Of a stretch of DNA of 30,389 bases, positions 290 through 26,402 are shown piece after piece. The translations under genes were made by a program, and so were the position numbers. The notes below the pieces were generated by a model. It made no database searches, had not been told where the DNA came from, and saw nothing but the letters and a program-made list of their open reading frames with translations. The DNA is from a virus, in IMG/VR virus record IMGVR_UViG_3300020214_000078, positions 1-30,389 of that record; one strand, written 5' to 3'. The first letter of the stretch is position 1. The number at the start of each line of letters is the position of its first letter.

Positions 290-494
290 CAGTCCCCTCC
301 AACTCGCGGTTAATCTCATGAATTCGTGCAAAATTCTTATCGAGTAGTTCTAAGCATTCAATCTCTGTTAAATAAATGCCCGTATCTTCAAAATATGCGT
401 CTATCACCCAACTATATTTAAAAGGTACTTGAAACTCAATATTTGCGGTCACGTATTCACCATAATAGTTTAAGCCTTCAACTGTTCTAGTCAT
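282..494 (-). CDS. 70-aa hypothetical early protein, paralogue of the 39-aa gene
   Basis: ATG at 494 lies behind a GGGGG-type ribosome site. The 70-residue product is acidic and shares the block WVIDAYFEDTGIYLTE (about residues 29-44) with the 39-aa product of the next gene downstream (WIVRAYFEHTGIYLTE). The rest resembles nothing I recognise. It overlaps the membrane-peptide gene upstream by 8 bp and the 39-aa gene downstream by 8 bp, so the cluster is probably read as one coupled transcript. By position this is an early, host-directed region, but no specific function can be supported. Confidence 0.72.
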   Translation of the reverse strand: MTRTVEGLNYYGEYVTANIEFQVPFKYSWVIDAYFEDTGIYLTEIECLELLDKNFARIHEINRELEGTDE

Positions 495-633
495 GCTGCC
501 CCCTTACAATCTGCTCAGTAACGACTTTTTGAATACTTTTGACGTTAGCCTCTTTTAACTTTGTCAAAAGCCCAAAGGTTAAGATCGCTAGTAGTATGCT
601 AAAGATTATTACAAGGCGTGTATAGGGTGCCAT
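487..633 (-). CDS. 48-aa single-pass membrane peptide
   Basis: I chose the ATG at 633 (MAPYTRLVIIF) because AAAGGA lies at the right distance upstream. A longer open frame to 720 has no ribosome site and runs through promoter-like sequence. Residues about 7-24 form a hydrophobic transmembrane helix, followed by a basic then mixed tail (KLKEANVKSIQKVV). This is the first gene of the leftward cluster and lies about 825 bp from the strong minus-strand promoter at 1466-1494. Small single-pass proteins are common among early phage genes, but which process this one affects cannot be told. Confidence 0.6.
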   Translation of the reverse strand: MAPYTRLVIIFSILLAILTFGLLTKLKEANVKSIQKVVTEQIVRGQHD

Positions 634-663
634 ATTAAGTCCTTTGTTAAGGTTTGTTAAGTC

Positions 664-710
664 TGCTTTCGTCTTTATACTACTACAATACGCGTGCCAA
701 ATGCAAGTGC
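664..710 (-). promoter_or_regulatory. weak promoter-like sequence before the membrane-peptide gene
   Basis: On the minus strand TTGCAT is followed 18 bp later by TAGTAT, and TTGGCA 15 bp later by TATAAA. Either pairing is a mediocre sigma70 match. It lies 30-80 bp upstream of the chosen start at 633, the right place for a local promoter of the small-gene cluster, but it is far weaker than the promoters at 1157-1546. Confidence 0.3.
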
Positions 711-833
711 TTGATATCATTGTGTGCTAATTGTGCTTTTCCGTAGAACTTCCATACAATGCTATACCATTTTACCACATAAGTATGTGATATTAAAAGC
801 AAATCCCCCCAATTGCATAACTTTTGATATCAA
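711..833. promoter_or_regulatory. cluster of palindromic operator-like boxes
   Basis: TTGATATCA occurs at 711-719 and, as the full 10-bp palindrome TTGATATCAA, at 824-833. Between them lies CACATA-AG-TATGTG (776-789), a perfect 6-bp inverted repeat with a 2-bp spacer, immediately beside a minus-strand TGGTAAAAT that resembles an extended -10 box. Such symmetry is typical of dimeric repressor sites. No candidate regulator gene lies in this window. Confidence 0.35.
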
Positions 834-870: not shown

Positions 871-983
871 CGTGCAACCCGGCACCCTAGTGGGGTAGGG
901 CACCAATGGGCACGGGCCCCCCGACGGAGAGATATCTATAATTTTTGGCCTTACGTGCGTTTATAACGCTTTTACCCTATTTA

Positions 984-1008
984 GGGAGGGGGGATGGAGG
1001 GGGGTGGG
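984..1008 (+). other. G-quadruplex motif
   Basis: The plus strand has four G-runs, GGG-A-GGGGGG-ATGGA-GGGGGG-T-GGG, which fits the canonical intramolecular G4 pattern with short loops (1, 5 and 1 nt). It is non-coding, in the control region, on the non-template strand for rightward transcription. The sequence is direct; that it folds is inference. Confidence 0.6.
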
Positions 1009-1100
1009 TTACAATGCGCTCTAATGGCAACGTCGCGCAAATTAGGGCCAGTTTAAGAAGGGGAAGGGAGATGAGCGGCAGCGCCCGTTAAGTAGGGCAT

Positions 1101-1131: not shown

Positions 1132-1156
1132 TTATGCATTTTTTTAAAAAAAAGAC

Positions 1157-1185
1157 TTGACAAACGCCAATAAACGTGTTATTAT
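1157..1185 (+). promoter_or_regulatory. strong sigma70-type promoter, rightward (upstream of two)
   Basis: TTGACA (1157-1162), a 17-bp spacer, then TATTAT (1180-1185). The -35 is perfect and the -10 has one mismatch. Transcription would begin near 1192 and enter the structured segment before reaching the fibre gene at 1577, so it yields either a leader of about 385 nt or a separate RNA. Confidence 0.8.
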
Positions 1186-1197
1186 TATGATATGATA

Positions 1198-1459
1198 GGG
1201 GTCGCTTGCAGAGAGGGACTTTTACTAACTTCCTTGCGGCTATAGCCCATAGAGGCGTCACCTGCCCGTCGCGATCAAGTGGTGAGCTACCCGGAGGCTA
1301 CCGGGACTTCCAAGAGGTTAAATGCGGGACATAACGTTAGCTAACATAAACAGAGGGGCGCTGCTGACGCGCGCCCCTACGTATGCTGGCAGGGTTCTAA
1401 AACCCTGCCTACCCTGCCGGGAGCTACCGTATATACGTATACACTATTTCTCGGCAGCA
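1198..1459. ncRNA. candidate structured non-coding RNA or leader
   Basis: No gene is present, but hairpins are packed tightly: palindrome 1238-1247, stem 1258-1262/1281-1285, CCCGG/CCGGG 1290-1305, palindrome 1336-1345, 8-bp stem 1354-1361/1371-1378, 9-bp stem 1388-1396/1401-1409 with a 4-nt loop, and 6-bp stem 1414-1419/1452-1457 enclosing a further GTATA/TATAC pair. A long-range helix pairs 1227-1236 with 1311-1319 using one bulge and one G-U pair, which only works on the plus-strand RNA. It is flanked by promoters facing inward from both sides. I cannot match it to tmRNA, RNase P, 6S, SRP, group I intron or a riboswitch class. Confidence 0.5.
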
Positions 1460-1465
1460 CAATTA

Positions 1466-1494
1466 ATTATAACATGAAAATAAGCATTTGTCAA
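1466..1494 (-). promoter_or_regulatory. perfect consensus sigma70 promoter, leftward
   Basis: On the minus strand TTGACA (1489-1494), a 17-bp spacer, then TATAAT (1466-1471): a complete consensus match. The start point is near 1459, so transcription runs left through the structured segment and on toward the small genes at 633-1. It is the best promoter in the window and the likely early promoter. Confidence 0.85.
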
Positions 1495-1576: not shown

Positions 1577-3631
1577 ATGGCTTTTTTAATTACTCCGCCG
1601 GCTCCCGGCATCCTCCCCCTTGGTTCAGTCTCTTTTCCTGAAATTGAGAACATGCCCAACAATCACCTACTTGGTAACAATACTGGTAGTGAAGGCCCAG
1701 CTCTGAGCTTAGACGCCGATGAGGCAACGGCATTACTTAGCCCTATGGTGGGTGCAAGTGCAAGCCATGGTGGGACTAAGGGATTAGTCCCGGCATCTTT
1801 TGCTGAAGATCGACTAAAGTTCTTACGCGCCGATGGGAATTGGGCACAAGGAACACCCGTCGCTACTTCAGCAGATGCTGGCAAAGTGCTTGCTACGGAT
1901 GGGACCAATGCATCTTGGCGATATGCCGGTTTGGGAGATGGAGGTTTTGGGACTAACAATGTCATTTTAGGACAAGCAAAGCCTGCTTCACTTACTGGAG
2001 CAAAAAATATTATTATTTCGGTACAACCAAGTTCGGCAACTACGTCAGATCGCAATGTTCTTATTGGGGATATTGGACTACCCATTACACAAGGCATTCT
2101 GAATGTTTGTATTGGTTTTGATACTAATATACAACCGGCACATAACTCTCAAGAAAACGTCGTAATTGGTACGCGAACTTATACAGCAGGATTTGGAAAT
2201 GCTCTTATTGGAGACTGTGTGTCGGGGGCTGGTGATAGCGTTGCAATTGGTAAGGCGGCATGGGCTGGTTCAATTGGCGCATTTAATAATCAACGTAACG
2301 TAGCAATTGGTGCTGGCGCCGCCACTTATGAGGGAAATAATGCAGTCGCCATTGGAGCTGGAGCACAAGCTCGAAAGTCGGACTCTGTGGTTATTGGAGC
2401 CTATTCAGCCGCTTATGGATTAACCTCAGTCGTGGTTGGGTGTAACTCTGGGAGCACGAATCTAGTTGGCGCAGACAATACCATAGTTGGGCAAGGCAGT
2501 GGAACGGCGCTGACGACGGGAAGTAAAAATATTTTTATTGGGAAATCTGCCGGTTCTGTGCTTACCACCGGATCAAACAACATTATCATTGGAGACGAAA
2601 CGTCTTTTGCCACTTCCACAAATGCCATATTAATTGGCGATAATGTAACTCATCATACAGGTGGAGATGCTGCGATTGCTGCTGGCGGGGTTTCTATCGG
2701 CAAAGATTCCCAAACATCTAGTGGCGTAGCTCTTGGTCTTGCCGCAAATGCGACCACAAATCCGTGGTTTCCTGGTACAGCAATTGGGCGGCAAGCAGTT
2801 GCTCTGGACAGTTCAGTCGCAATTGGAGCCTACGCGTCTGCTCCCGGTTGGTATGGTAATCCAATGATTGCAATTGGCTATGGTGCTATTTCAAATAGTC
2901 TTTGTACAGTTATTGGGCATGGTGCAGACGCTAATACTCCACAAGCAAGGGCTACGCATAGCATTTTGCTTGGTCACAATTGTAGCGCCACAATACCGTG
3001 GATAGATCAAACAAATAGGCAAGCAAATAATACATTTTATATTGGAAGTCAAGCTGCCCCAATTAAAACGGTTTATTTAGGTGCCGGAGGAACTGGGCAC
3101 AGTGCTCTAGCAGTGCCCGTTTTATTTACTTTATCTCCTATAGGGTACGAAGCAAATGGAAGTGCTTCAGCAAATATATTAACAATTGCTGGCGCTCAAG
3201 GAACTGGAACAGGGCCAGGAGGAGACCTTGTTTTTTCAACGGCTCCTGCTGGTAGTACAGCGTATAGACTAAATCCTCATGTTGAAAGAATGAGGGTTCA
3301 GGTTGATGGTATCATTAAAATCTCGTGTGGCGAAAAACACGCTTCAATTCATGGCCTAACTGCAAACTATACCGCCACCATAAATAATTACTACATTGGT
3401 GTGGATACCTCATCCGCAGCAATAACAGTTAAGCTTCCTGCGGCTGGAACTGCTGGACAAGGTTTTGTAATGGTTATCAAAGATGAAACTGGAAATGCTG
3501 CAACTGCCAGCAGAAATATTACCGTTGATGGAGACGGAAGCAATATTGATGGCGCTCCAACGCAAACAATTAATACAAACTACGGATCTGTGTCGTTAAT
3601 GTTCAGCGGATCTGCATGGTTCATAATGTAA
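1577..3631 (+). CDS. tail fibre with YadA-like head repeats
   Basis: 684 residues. After an N-terminal segment (1-120) that probably attaches to the tail, residues about 125-480 carry many copies of a short repeat of the form N-x-V-[AV]-I-G, the signature of the left-handed beta-roll of YadA/Hep-Hag trimeric adhesins, also seen in phage fibres. The last 90 residues (ATINNYYIGVDTSSAAITVK to SAWFIM) match a domain I recognise from the ends of many phage fibres. The likely role is trimeric receptor binding. ATG at 1577 has AAGGAG seven bases or so upstream and follows the promoter at 1518. It is the first gene of the rightward operon, an unusual place for a fibre gene. The family call is solid; the receptor is unknown. 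Confidence 0.8.
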   Translation: MAFLITPPAPGILPLGSVSFPEIENMPNNHLLGNNTGSEGPALSLDADEATALLSPMVGASASHGGTKGLVPASFAEDRLKFLRADGNWAQGTPVATSADAGKVLATDGTNASWRYAGLGDGGFGTNNVILGQAKPASLTGAKNIIISVQPSSATTSDRNVLIGDIGLPITQGILNVCIGFDTNIQPAHNSQENVVIGTRTYTAGFGNALIGDCVSGAGDSVAIGKAAWAGSIGAFNNQRNVAIGAGAATYEGNNAVAIGAGAQARKSDSVVIGAYSAAYGLTSVVVGCNSGSTNLVGADNTIVGQGSGTALTTGSKNIFIGKSAGSVLTTGSNNIIIGDETSFATSTNAILIGDNVTHHTGGDAAIAAGGVSIGKDSQTSSGVALGLAANATTNPWFPGTAIGRQAVALDSSVAIGAYASAPGWYGNPMIAIGYGAISNSLCTVIGHGADANTPQARATHSILLGHNCSATIPWIDQTNRQANNTFYIGSQAAPIKTVYLGAGGTGHSALAVPVLFTLSPIGYEANGSASANILTIAGAQGTGTGPGGDLVFSTAPAGSTAYRLNPHVERMRVQVDGIIKISCGEKHASIHGLTANYTATINNYYIGVDTSSAAITVKLPAAGTAGQGFVMVIKDETGNAATASRNITVDGDGSNIDGAPTQTINTNYGSVSLMFSGSAWFIM

Positions 3632-4077: not shown

Positions 4078-7000
4078 ATGGCAACATACGCAGCAAAATC
4101 GGGAACACAAAATTTCACGGACACATGGGCAGAAGTTTATCTTTCTAGCAATACTGAATATTGGTACGTTGCTGACAGTCCAGTAAATGAGAATACGGCA
4201 GATGTTTATCAGGTATCCCCTGCGTTTACTCCAGGTGCTATGGAAATTGATGCCATTGGCTTTCATTTTAATTATTCACGGTCTGCCGCTTATGTAAATG
4301 AGACTGGCGGTTTCTATGGTCAGCCCAATTGGCCAAGTGACCCAGGGACGTTTACCCTTAGACTTGCTCAAGGCGGGTCAACCGTCGCGGGGACAGAAGT
4401 TACCGTAAATGGTGCCGACCTAATGGAAGTTTCAAGAACCATTGGCTTCTACGGTGCTTTTGGTGGTGAGTTGCAGACACGATACGATGGAAGTTTCGTG
4501 ATGATTAAGCTTCCGACCCCTGTTACGTTGAACGCCGGGACCGCCTATACACTGGACTTCAAGGCTTCTAGGGCCCATATGTTCTGGGTATATACCAGTC
4601 ATCCGAACAGTACTTCGTGGATGTTTTTTTTCCGCAAAATTTCCACAGGAACTCCAGTTGCGGGAGATCGACTCTTTATTTGCGGAGAGTTAAGCCCTAC
4701 TAGCGGGTGGTCAACCAACACAGTGCTGCATAATAGCACTGATTCCACCACAACCTTTGGCCGCTTGGACATTGGCAATTCAGGCGTTTGGCAATGGGGC
4801 ACTGCAAGCTCTACTAACTACTATTATAAAACAAATGGTGATATTCGGGTGGGGTCAAGTGGAACCCTGCAAATTGGCACCAGCGCTTCCCCATTACCAG
4901 CAACATCGACGGCAACAATAGATTTTGTTCCTTCTTCTGGGGGCGCGTGTGCTTTGTTTTGCTCACGCAAATCCAATGTAACCATGATTGGCCCGGTTAA
5001 AACACATGTTGGTTATTTACAAAGCAATATTGCGGTTGGGGCTACTACTGCGACAATATCGTCGTCATCAAGCGGCCCTGTTGATCCTGAATGGAAAAAT
5101 GGTGATCTAGTTGTTTTTGCGGCGGCTCCTACGGATACTAATCTTTCAAGCCATTGGAATAAATTTGACCAAGCAACGTTAAGTTCAGACTCAAATGGAG
5201 CCGGAGGTATTCAATTGACTGGCGGCACTACACACGCACACAAGACGCAACATCCTTGGGTGGCAAATCTTTCCAGAAACATCAAAATCAAAGGTACAAG
5301 CACATCAAATACCTACATCTTTGCAAGCAATACGGACAAAATTAATTTGCGCGGCGTCGAGATGTTTAATCTTGATTCCTGTATGCTTCGCAATGGGGAC
5401 ATGGCCAATTTTGTGACCATTGAGAATTGTGTTGTAAGACACTGTAGAGCTGTTGATTATACAAAGCCACCAGGGATCATTTCTTGGTCAAACAAAAACC
5501 TTTTGCTAAAAGATTGTGTTGTCGCAAGGGCGGGTGGCTACGCATTTACAAGAAACGTAAGCTCAGGCAACGTTAATTCTGATGGTACCGGCCAAGCTAC
5601 TGTTGTTAAAAATTGTGTTTCTATTGCAAATGACAATTCACACAACCAAATTCAGGGTTTTGAAAATAGCAGTCAACTGGGTAATGATCCCTATGTGATA
5701 TTAGATGGGTGTATTTCAACCTCTAACTCATCGTCTGGAATATATTGGCGTAGCGCATCCACTACCCTGCACAATAACATGAATGCAATAAAAAATTGTT
5801 TTGTGGGCGTTAACGCAGGTATTTCGCGTTTTCTTGGGGAATATGAAGGTTGGGGTGATGTCATCACTGGCGGGGAAGGTGAGGGGTCTTACAAAGTAAC
5901 AAACTGCTCCTTTGTTGACACACATATCTCGCTTGAGGGATGCAATGTTACCGTTGAAAACTGCGCCTTTACACATAGCTACGATGGAACAGGTTCTTTT
6001 GTTAATTCGAACCAGCTTCTAAGACAGCACGGATATATCAATGAACCTAAACTTCCAAACTATCTTAATAATTGCACTTTTACCGTCCCAACCAGTGGCG
6101 CAGTTCACCCTTTTGCAGATTTTAACCATGGCGGTCAACCCGTAATTATAAATGGCGGAAGCACAAATTGTGGGTTGAGAACCGATATCGGGGCGAACGG
6201 TGGCGCTCAATGGCTCTTTAATAATTTTGCTTGCCCGAACTGGGCCACCTCTTTTTTGTCAACCAACAACGCCACAACAAACCACTCACCATTAAACGTG
6301 ATAGGGGGGCCTTGGAATAGACCTAGGGATGGCTGGATCAAATTTCAACGGTTTAATCAGGTTGAGGGGGATCACCGAACTTACAGCGGGCAATACATGA
6401 TGTTTGCGGACTCAACAATATTTGACTCTTCACCGAGGTCTTTAAAGATATATTCAAACGCAATAAACGTAGGATCGTGGGGCGCTCCAATTAGAATTCC
6501 ATTAAAGAAAAACCAATCAGCAACTCTAGAGTTTAAAGTTAAACTTAGTGAAAACACGGCAGAGATTTATGATTTCTATAAACCACGAAAAAGTTTTATG
6601 GGACTTATTCCGTCTGTTTTCATTAAGGCTAACCCCGCTTTAGGACCAAATTATAATTCTGACATTGAATTAGTTAATGCCGAACAAATAAATGGGGCAA
6701 CAACTTTTACTCCAAGCGCCCTGGGAACCGCGGTGCGTTTATGGTTGGATTGCACTGACGCCAGTACGCTTTCTTACAATCCCGAAACATTGACCGTGCA
6801 TGAGTGGCGCGACAAATCTGGAAATGCCCATCACCTAACGCAAACTGTGGAACTTCAAAAACCTTTCCTTAGAAAAAATAATCCAACGGGCTGCCCCTTT
6901 CTAGCCACCACACCCGTGTCTTGGACTTCGCGAGCCGATCAACGGTTAGCTTTCTCGGGAAATATTCTAAATACTACAACCGCCGAAATGGAAATTTTTA

Positions 7001-25584: not shown

Positions 25585-25806
25585 ATGCGTGCGGATCAAC
25601 TACTACACAAAATAGATAAACGACTTGCCGTTCTGGAAGCAATTAGTAAAGAACATGCTATTGAAACGGAAGAACAATTACGTGAATTAAAAAGTGATGT
25701 CGCCGCAGTTAAAACGGAAGTGGGTTACTTAAAAATTAAAATTGCGGGGGTTGCATCGGTAGCTTCCTTTATTATTAGTATTGCTCTTAAAAAGTGGGGT
25801 ATGTAG
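25585..25806 (+). CDS. 73-aa coiled-coil protein with C-terminal membrane anchor (XhlA/holin-like)
   Basis: 73 residues with AAGGA before the ATG. Residues about 5-50 are a heptad-patterned coiled coil (LLHKIDKRLAVLEAI; LRELKSDVAAVKTEVGYLK). Residues about 53-68 form a hydrophobic C-terminal helix, then KKWGM. Coiled coil plus terminal membrane helix is the layout of haemolysin XhlA-type phage lysis accessories. The TAG stop overlaps the GTG start of the rhomboid gene (TAGTG), which couples the two. Confidence 0.62.
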   Translation: MRADQLLHKIDKRLAVLEAISKEHAIETEEQLRELKSDVAAVKTEVGYLKIKIAGVASVASFIISIALKKWGM

Positions 25807-26402
25807 TGGCAACCCTATGCCTCTTTGCAGTAAGCGTTTTATCCCTTCTTCTATTTGATCCGGTGGTAACGGCCTACGTCTACGATGAGCCCACCTTTCA
25901 ATGGCGCTTTGTAACACTATTTACCCACATGGTTAGCCATGGGGGATGGGCACATCTTCTTGGGAATTTTCTATTTGGTGCACCCTATATGTTATATCTT
26001 GAACACAGATTGCAAAGCTCGAAAAAATTTATTCGGTTGTTTTTTTGTGCGGGGTTGGTTGCGCTGTTGTTTCAATATATTTTTAATGAGATGGCGATAA
26101 TTAAATCGAGTGGTTTGATTGGTAGTAGTGGTGCAATCTTTGGTCTTGTGGGGGCGGCGCTTATGGGGTATCGCGGGCCGCGAGCGGTTCAATTGACGGC
26201 CAAAGCCATCCTTATATTTCATATAATAACTCAAGGACAAGCTGCGTGGGTATCACTTGTTTGGGCAGACGGTGTGGCATATGCAGCGCATTTTGGTGGA
26301 ATACTGGCCGGTGTGTGGTTTAGTTATCATCATCTGAATCGGGGTCCCAGTCGCTCTCAAAAACGACGGTGCGGTCAACGACGCTCTCTTCCAAAACAAT
26401 AA
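25806..26402 (+). CDS. rhomboid-family intramembrane serine protease
   Basis: 198 residues from GTG 25806, chosen because it overlaps the previous TAG by one base; GTG 25794 would add four residues. Six membrane spans are visible (about 2-19, 50-66, 78-92, 105-121, 130-142, 158-175). All rhomboid hallmarks are present: H45, H50 and N54 in HGGWAHLLGN (same spacing as GlpG H145/H150/N154), the nucleophile S108 in IGSSGAIFG, and H162 in YAAHFGGILAG. It should cleave transmembrane helices in the host membrane. The basic tail (about 171-198) overlaps the opposite-strand gene by 83 bp. It is the last gene of the rightward operon, after two holin-like genes. The substrate is unknown. Confidence 0.9.
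   Translation: MATLCLFAVSVLSLLLFDPVVTAYVYDEPTFQWRFVTLFTHMVSHGGWAHLLGNFLFGAPYMLYLEHRLQSSKKFIRLFFCAGLVALLFQYIFNEMAIIKSSGLIGSSGAIFGLVGAALMGYRGPRAVQLTAKAILIFHIITQGQAAWVSLVWADGVAYAAHFGGILAGVWFSYHHLNRGPSRSQKRRCGQRRSLPKQ

Follow-up and report, generated by a model that had tools for sequence, protein, structure and literature searches.

Two strong predicted promoters of the host sigma-70 type, P1 and PL, face each other near one end of the window (the whole 30,389-bp IMG/VR record analysed here, from a phage of freshwater type) and bracket a structured RNA, an H-type pseudoknot followed by a hairpin, which looks like a new family missing from Rfam. This RNA, which lies in the leader transcribed from P1, was absent from the preliminary description of the region. 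The explanation that we favour, and to which we would give about an even chance of being correct, is a hub of host sigma-70 promoters in which the pseudoknot of the P1 leader acts in cis and P1 and PL interfere with each other.

Genomic context

Terminase, portal, major head and tail genes are present in the window, which has a virion block running rightward; its minus strand encodes a DNA polymerase of family A together with an RNase H-like exonuclease. The portal relatives of the window reach about 40 kb. The virion block opens with a tail spike- or fibre-like gene (1577–3631, plus strand; phrog_4636, E = 2.8e-11), and the rightward block closes with a gene that has a rhomboid protease domain (25794–26402; PF01694, E = 1e-18). 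None of the named phages was matched in a megablast search with 25 kb of the window. The first leftward ORF downstream of PL (487–720, minus strand, together with 282–494) matches no family. In the relative G001 (39,973 bp), small genes in leftward orientation occupy the region to the left of P1, forming a block between about 39 and 32.5 kb, which makes it likely that a leftward early block starts at PL. Also to the left of P1, a non-coding stretch of the window (876–1018) shows about 68% identity to the relative L004 and is present in another, L132 (GGGCCCCCCGACGGAGAGA ... GGGGGGATGGAGGGGGGTGGGTTACAA). The annotated genes include no integrase or repressor, the neighbours of the promoters being tail genes, the DUF6321 gene described below and small early-type ORFs. 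No single-subunit RNA polymerase (PF00940) was detected in the window or in the records of seven relatives (two of them about 40 kb long) in a search in which the control set was silent as well.

Three promoters of one host type

P1 (1157–1185, plus strand; TTGACA-17-TATTAT with an extended −10 TG, 11/12) has its predicted start near 1192, and PL (1494–1466, minus strand; TTGACA-17-TATAAT, also with an extended −10 TG, 12/12) has its predicted start near 1459; these are exactly the near-perfect rightward promoter and the perfect leftward promoter that the preliminary description had proposed. The facing arrangement across about 265 bp is borne out as well, given that the predicted starts are 267 bp apart, the sites are outliers against shuffled sequences and the pair is kept in relatives. 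Among 2000 dinucleotide shuffles of positions 1100–1600, sites of at least 11/12 averaged 0.01, and no shuffle contained as many as three. The whole window contains only five such sites, three of which are P1, PL and P2, the other two (22560 and 28276, minus strand) both being devoid of the TG. Judged by consensus and conservation, P1 and PL are a convergent promoter pair, located on opposite strands and with overlapping predicted transcripts. The third promoter, P2 (1518–1546, plus strand; TTGACA-17-TATTAT, extended −10 TG, 11/12), has its −35 box back to back with that of PL and, as had been noted before, is placed by geometry outside the overlap, where it would escape the collision. An A/T tract directly 5' of the P1 −35 box (1141–1155, plus strand) is a possible UP element; L003, L008, L009, L043 and L024 have an A-tract in the corresponding position. 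The T-run at 1498–1517 was considered as a P1 terminator and rejected; the same place is A-rich on the plus strand in L008 and L009.

The preliminary description also set early (leftward) against virion (rightward) expression. The gene map fits this polarity, the leftward blocks comprising the DNA polymerase and small early-type genes and the rightward genes being those for tail and head. However, nothing indicates that the promoters are used at different times: all three are of one host sigma-70 type, and since one host polymerase would fire them all at once, a time switch would need a regulator. A temporal early/late switch thus finds no support.

The order, strands and TG extensions of P1, PL and P2 are the same in L003, L004, L008, L009, L043, L024 and L132/L002 (the two ends of one record), and the hub is kept in all seven relatives that cover the region, P1 itself being found in 7/7. 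PL and P2 are also retained in L031, a record that starts inside the pseudoknot motif, and PL scores 12/12 in L008, L009, L043 and L024. The predicted starts of P1 and PL are closest in the window (267 bp), followed by L024 (about 320 bp), and are separated by about 550–690 bp in the other relatives. PL and P2 are arranged back to back, their −35 boxes being separated by 15–37 bp; the exception is L024, which has the DUF6321 gene between these two promoters. The promoter sites are conserved although the DNA here is about 68–76% alike or no longer alignable between phages, and the RNA core (1251–1310) is the sole feature between P1 and PL that is present in the window and all these relatives.

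Several further elements are found close to PL. A perfect hairpin, GGCAGGGTT-CTAA-AACCCTGCC (1388–1409, not assigned to a strand), corresponds in position to a hairpin of L003 that differs from it in sequence. The initial transcribed region of PL (1430–1461, minus strand) is 94% identical in L003 and L004 and includes the palindrome TATACGTATA (1432–1441), which is unique in the window and would lie 18–27 nt into the predicted PL transcript. Where the window has this palindrome, L003 has a 12-base direct repeat, CGTATACACTAT (717–743). The palindrome and the direct repeat may be candidate operators acting on PL.

A pseudoknot RNA in the P1 leader

The 5' part of the P1 leader RNA (1192–1250, plus strand) was delineated by alignment with relatives and is followed by the RNA core (1251–1310, plus strand), which was recognised by its recurrence in unrelated phages, by covariation and by a covariance model match; the RNA fold of 1192–1530 has z = −2.9. 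In the plus-strand RNA of the window, RNA stem P1 pairs 1254–1256 with 1264–1266, the pseudoknot pairs the loop bases UCACC (1258–1262) with GGUGA (1281–1285), and hairpin P3 (1290–1294/1301–1305) closes the loop AGGCUA. The general plan is a stem NNNGC/GCNNN closing a 7-base loop G[U/C]CACCU, five bases of which pair with a 3' GGUG[A/G] to form the H-type pseudoknot, the linker in front of this 3' strand being 4 to about 50 bases long; GGUG[A/G] is followed by GC and then by a hairpin with a GCA/GCU-containing loop. Most members of the window group have an additional hairpin in the linker, with the loop GAGAAG and then CUUCUC. A hairpin loop that pairs downstream, followed by another hairpin, is the topology of the Pistol ribozyme and of small H-type pseudoknot riboswitches as well, but no Rfam model of these matches any member tested. 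We do not favour the view that the loop UCACCU mimics the 16S rRNA 3' end for ribosome docking; covarying members have CCACC/GGUGG.

The strict pattern derived from the window core yielded 31 distinct matches, 22 of which have the 3' hairpin P3 and were chosen by this hairpin, not by RNA stem P1. Pairs 3, 4 and 5 of the stem, which are outside both the search pattern and the P3-based selection, are paired in 22/22, 17/22 and 16/22 of these sequences, respectively, against 37.5% expected. When the loop was fixed as CCACC and its partner left as A or G, true members were found only with G (L300, L304, L313/L321, L322 and L317), and the matches with A were isolated and chance-like; the loop pair of the pseudoknot changes from U-A to C-G. 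In an alignment of the 31 cores, which come from members that had passed a filter on two stem pairs and on the loop pair and which have one filler base as the linker, 92% of the cells are paired and the covariation score is 0.32 (0.10 for shuffles, at most 0.10 when slid). Because this alignment was pre-filtered, the clean tests are the count of stem pairs 3–5 and the CCACC loop-pair scan; the inner CACC/GGUG pairs, being fixed by the search patterns, are uninformative on covariation. The loop pairs with the 3' strand, as in an H-type pseudoknot, with support from covariation. The covariance model R1 assigns 54.2 bits to the window copy (1251–1315), the window being one of its source sequences, and on 32 whole records it found one strong copy in 28, two in one and none in three. 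No Rfam family matched the pseudoknot RNA above the gathering threshold, permissive searches giving the same outcome, and no RNA matching the element was found in the literature.

Occurrence in unrelated phages

Approximately 30 distinct copies matching the strict pattern are present in unrelated IMG/VR phages, usually one per genome. They are intergenic and, in those read, on the strand of the downstream gene, the start codon of which is often 20–60 nt past the motif (e.g., in L139, L170, L283, L290, L295 and L288). The downstream genes vary, including virion or tail genes (L144, L031), ParB in Mu-like prophages (L313), phrog_4652 (L170), phrog_1544 (L283) and DUF6321. Unrelated downstream genes of this kind, with no shared pathway, are not the pattern of a metabolite riboswitch and fit an element of general function in cis or else a small RNA. 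A strong terminator lies within about 100 nt after the motif in L141/L143/L145/L148, L279 and L322; none was found in the P1–PL interval of the window or its relatives.

Some copies have peculiarities of their own. L284 carries two pseudoknot copies, 4426–4482 and 1428–1484 (minus strand), about 3 kb apart and with a changed stem (GC/GC vs GU/AC). In the Mu-like prophage L304 (8799–8881, minus strand), the 3' flank of the pseudoknot resembles the suhB/mmgR sRNAs at 21.4 bits, below the cut-off of 41, and ends with a terminator-like hairpin and a U run. In L140 and L278, a sequence judged by eye to be tRNA-like lies directly 5' of the pseudoknot.

Blast searches against named phages gave no match for the motif copies and a single weak 400-base match for the 8-kb flank of L313. 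In bacterial chromosomes, a GTDB pattern scan produced 10 matches, which we judged to be due to chance (coding-looking and without the stems), and the exact pattern had two matches only in 754 alpha- and gammaproteobacterial genomes, the one read (G621) being coding-like. Scoring with R1 in bacterial genomes covered only about 15 candidates per genome and is weak evidence; a relaxed motif pattern returned mostly chance matches.

Loss of the DUF6321 gene in the window

The P1–PL interval of L003, L004, L008, L009 and L043 contains a gene of 103–105 codons that follows the pseudoknot and encodes DUF6321 (PF19846, a domain of unknown function; 2.4e-15), and in L024 this gene is located just beyond PL (PL at 1003–975, gene at 1012). 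The window keeps the leader up to 1315 and the gene end from 1352. Between them, 36 unrelated bases (1316–1351, plus strand) replace the 103-codon gene of L003/L004, and what remains of the final codons and the stop region (1352–1379, plus strand) is 93% identical to L003/L004, one base short and broken in frame. DUF6321 was not found anywhere else in the window record. At the level of sequence, these remnants show that the DUF6321 gene was deleted in the window phage and the RNA retained; the loss is read from a single record, and an assembly error may be its cause.

A control hub and its alternatives

In the explanation that we favour, the three promoters would together constitute a control hub, and the phage appears to depend on the host sigma-70 RNA polymerase. 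P1 would produce, rightwards, a leader RNA with the pseudoknot and hairpin core, which in the relatives would run on into the DUF6321 gene; PL would fire leftwards, antisense through the pseudoknot DNA, and feed the leftward early block; and P2 would supply the genes for tail and virion that lie past the overlap. With a conserved structured RNA and, in the relatives, a DUF6321 gene of its own to transcribe, P1 does not appear to be merely a second virion promoter. The leader pseudoknot would act in cis on the rightward unit, through read-through or translation: the position of the motif on the strand of the downstream gene, often shortly before the start codon, points to a cis role. The P1 and PL polymerases would interfere by collision and occlusion, mutual interference being expected from the geometry, so that the output of leader RNA would stay low as long as PL is active.

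Pairs of strong promoters that face each other over 60–340 bp are known from phage control regions, namely pR/pL and pR/pE of coliphage 186 and PR/PRE of lambda (PMC6593788, PMC7498355), where the modes of interference are collision, occlusion and sitting duck (PMC6593788, PMC7498355); for lambda PR/PRE (320 bp) and 186 pR/pE (340 bp), interference is about 1.6- to 6.7-fold (PMC6593788). The likeness consists in two strong facing promoters in a phage control region, which are known here from sequence. The 186 and lambda pairs, however, serve lysis/lysogeny with CI/CII/Apl, whereas the promoters described here look like constitutive sigma-70 promoters; furthermore, the interval here holds a structured RNA, and the spacing is variable among relatives, with 267 bp as the shortest and about 690 bp as the longest. 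Since translated transcripts tend to win polymerase collisions (PMC6593788), loss of DUF6321 would be expected to weaken P1 against PL.

Two observations run against a role in cis, namely that the motif precedes different genes in different phages, which is odd for a classical riboswitch, and that a terminator follows soon after the motif in several lineages, as expected of a free-standing sRNA. Such an sRNA gene (P1–pseudoknot here, pseudoknot–terminator elsewhere), whose trans-acting product would bind a host factor or an mRNA and would be tuned in amount by the PL antisense transcript, is in our estimate unlikely, though far from negligible. The downstream gene would then be incidental and could be lost or differ, in line with the unrelated neighbour genes and with the window, which kept the RNA and lost the DUF6321 gene; the single copy per phage genome, the strong terminators listed above and the sub-threshold suhB/mmgR resemblance in L304 also speak for it. 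Conversely, the P1–PL interval is free of terminators, the motif is tight against a ribosome-binding site and without a terminator in L170, L283, L290, L295, L288 and L139, and the copies read share the strand of the downstream gene. We consider it rather improbable that the nascent pseudoknot binds its own host polymerase in the manner of put antitermination, enabling it to pass terminators and perhaps to survive encounters with PL polymerases. The phage association of the RNA and its position right after a phage promoter and, in several lineages, before terminators would suit this mechanism, and put of HK022 is likewise an RNA of about 70 nt located just downstream of PL and about 270 nt into PR (PMC9378689), that is, a compact phage leader RNA adjacent to an early promoter and acting, as proposed here, with no dedicated protein. 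In the architecture, by which the two are compared, put consists of two stem-loops, described without a pseudoknot, and is present at two sites in HK022, whereas here an H-type pseudoknot plus hairpin occurs in one copy per phage; moreover, the window group has no conserved downstream terminator.

The simplest alternative, in which the convergent promoters form an ordinary collision and antisense switch and the pseudoknot is a passive part of the leader, draws on the strength and conservation of P1 and PL and on the known behaviour of the lambda and 186 pairs; we regard it as quite improbable, given that the RNA core recurs, with covariation, in unrelated phages and different gene contexts, and is therefore under selection of its own. 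Even smaller is the probability that we attach to a DNA-level element, such as an origin or a packaging or recombination site, which would be in keeping with one intergenic copy per genome but not with covariation of the pseudoknot type or with the consistent strand relative to the downstream gene.

Implications

Convergent phage promoters are already known; here, the pair brackets an RNA knot shared by many unrelated phages. In this compact system, promoter collision is separable from the structured nascent RNA. The R1 covariance model can be used to look for the RNA elsewhere. We tentatively suggest that this phage-specific family of structured RNAs might represent a portable element regulating transcription or translation in phages that, in the phage group described here, would be controlled by a dedicated facing antisense promoter.
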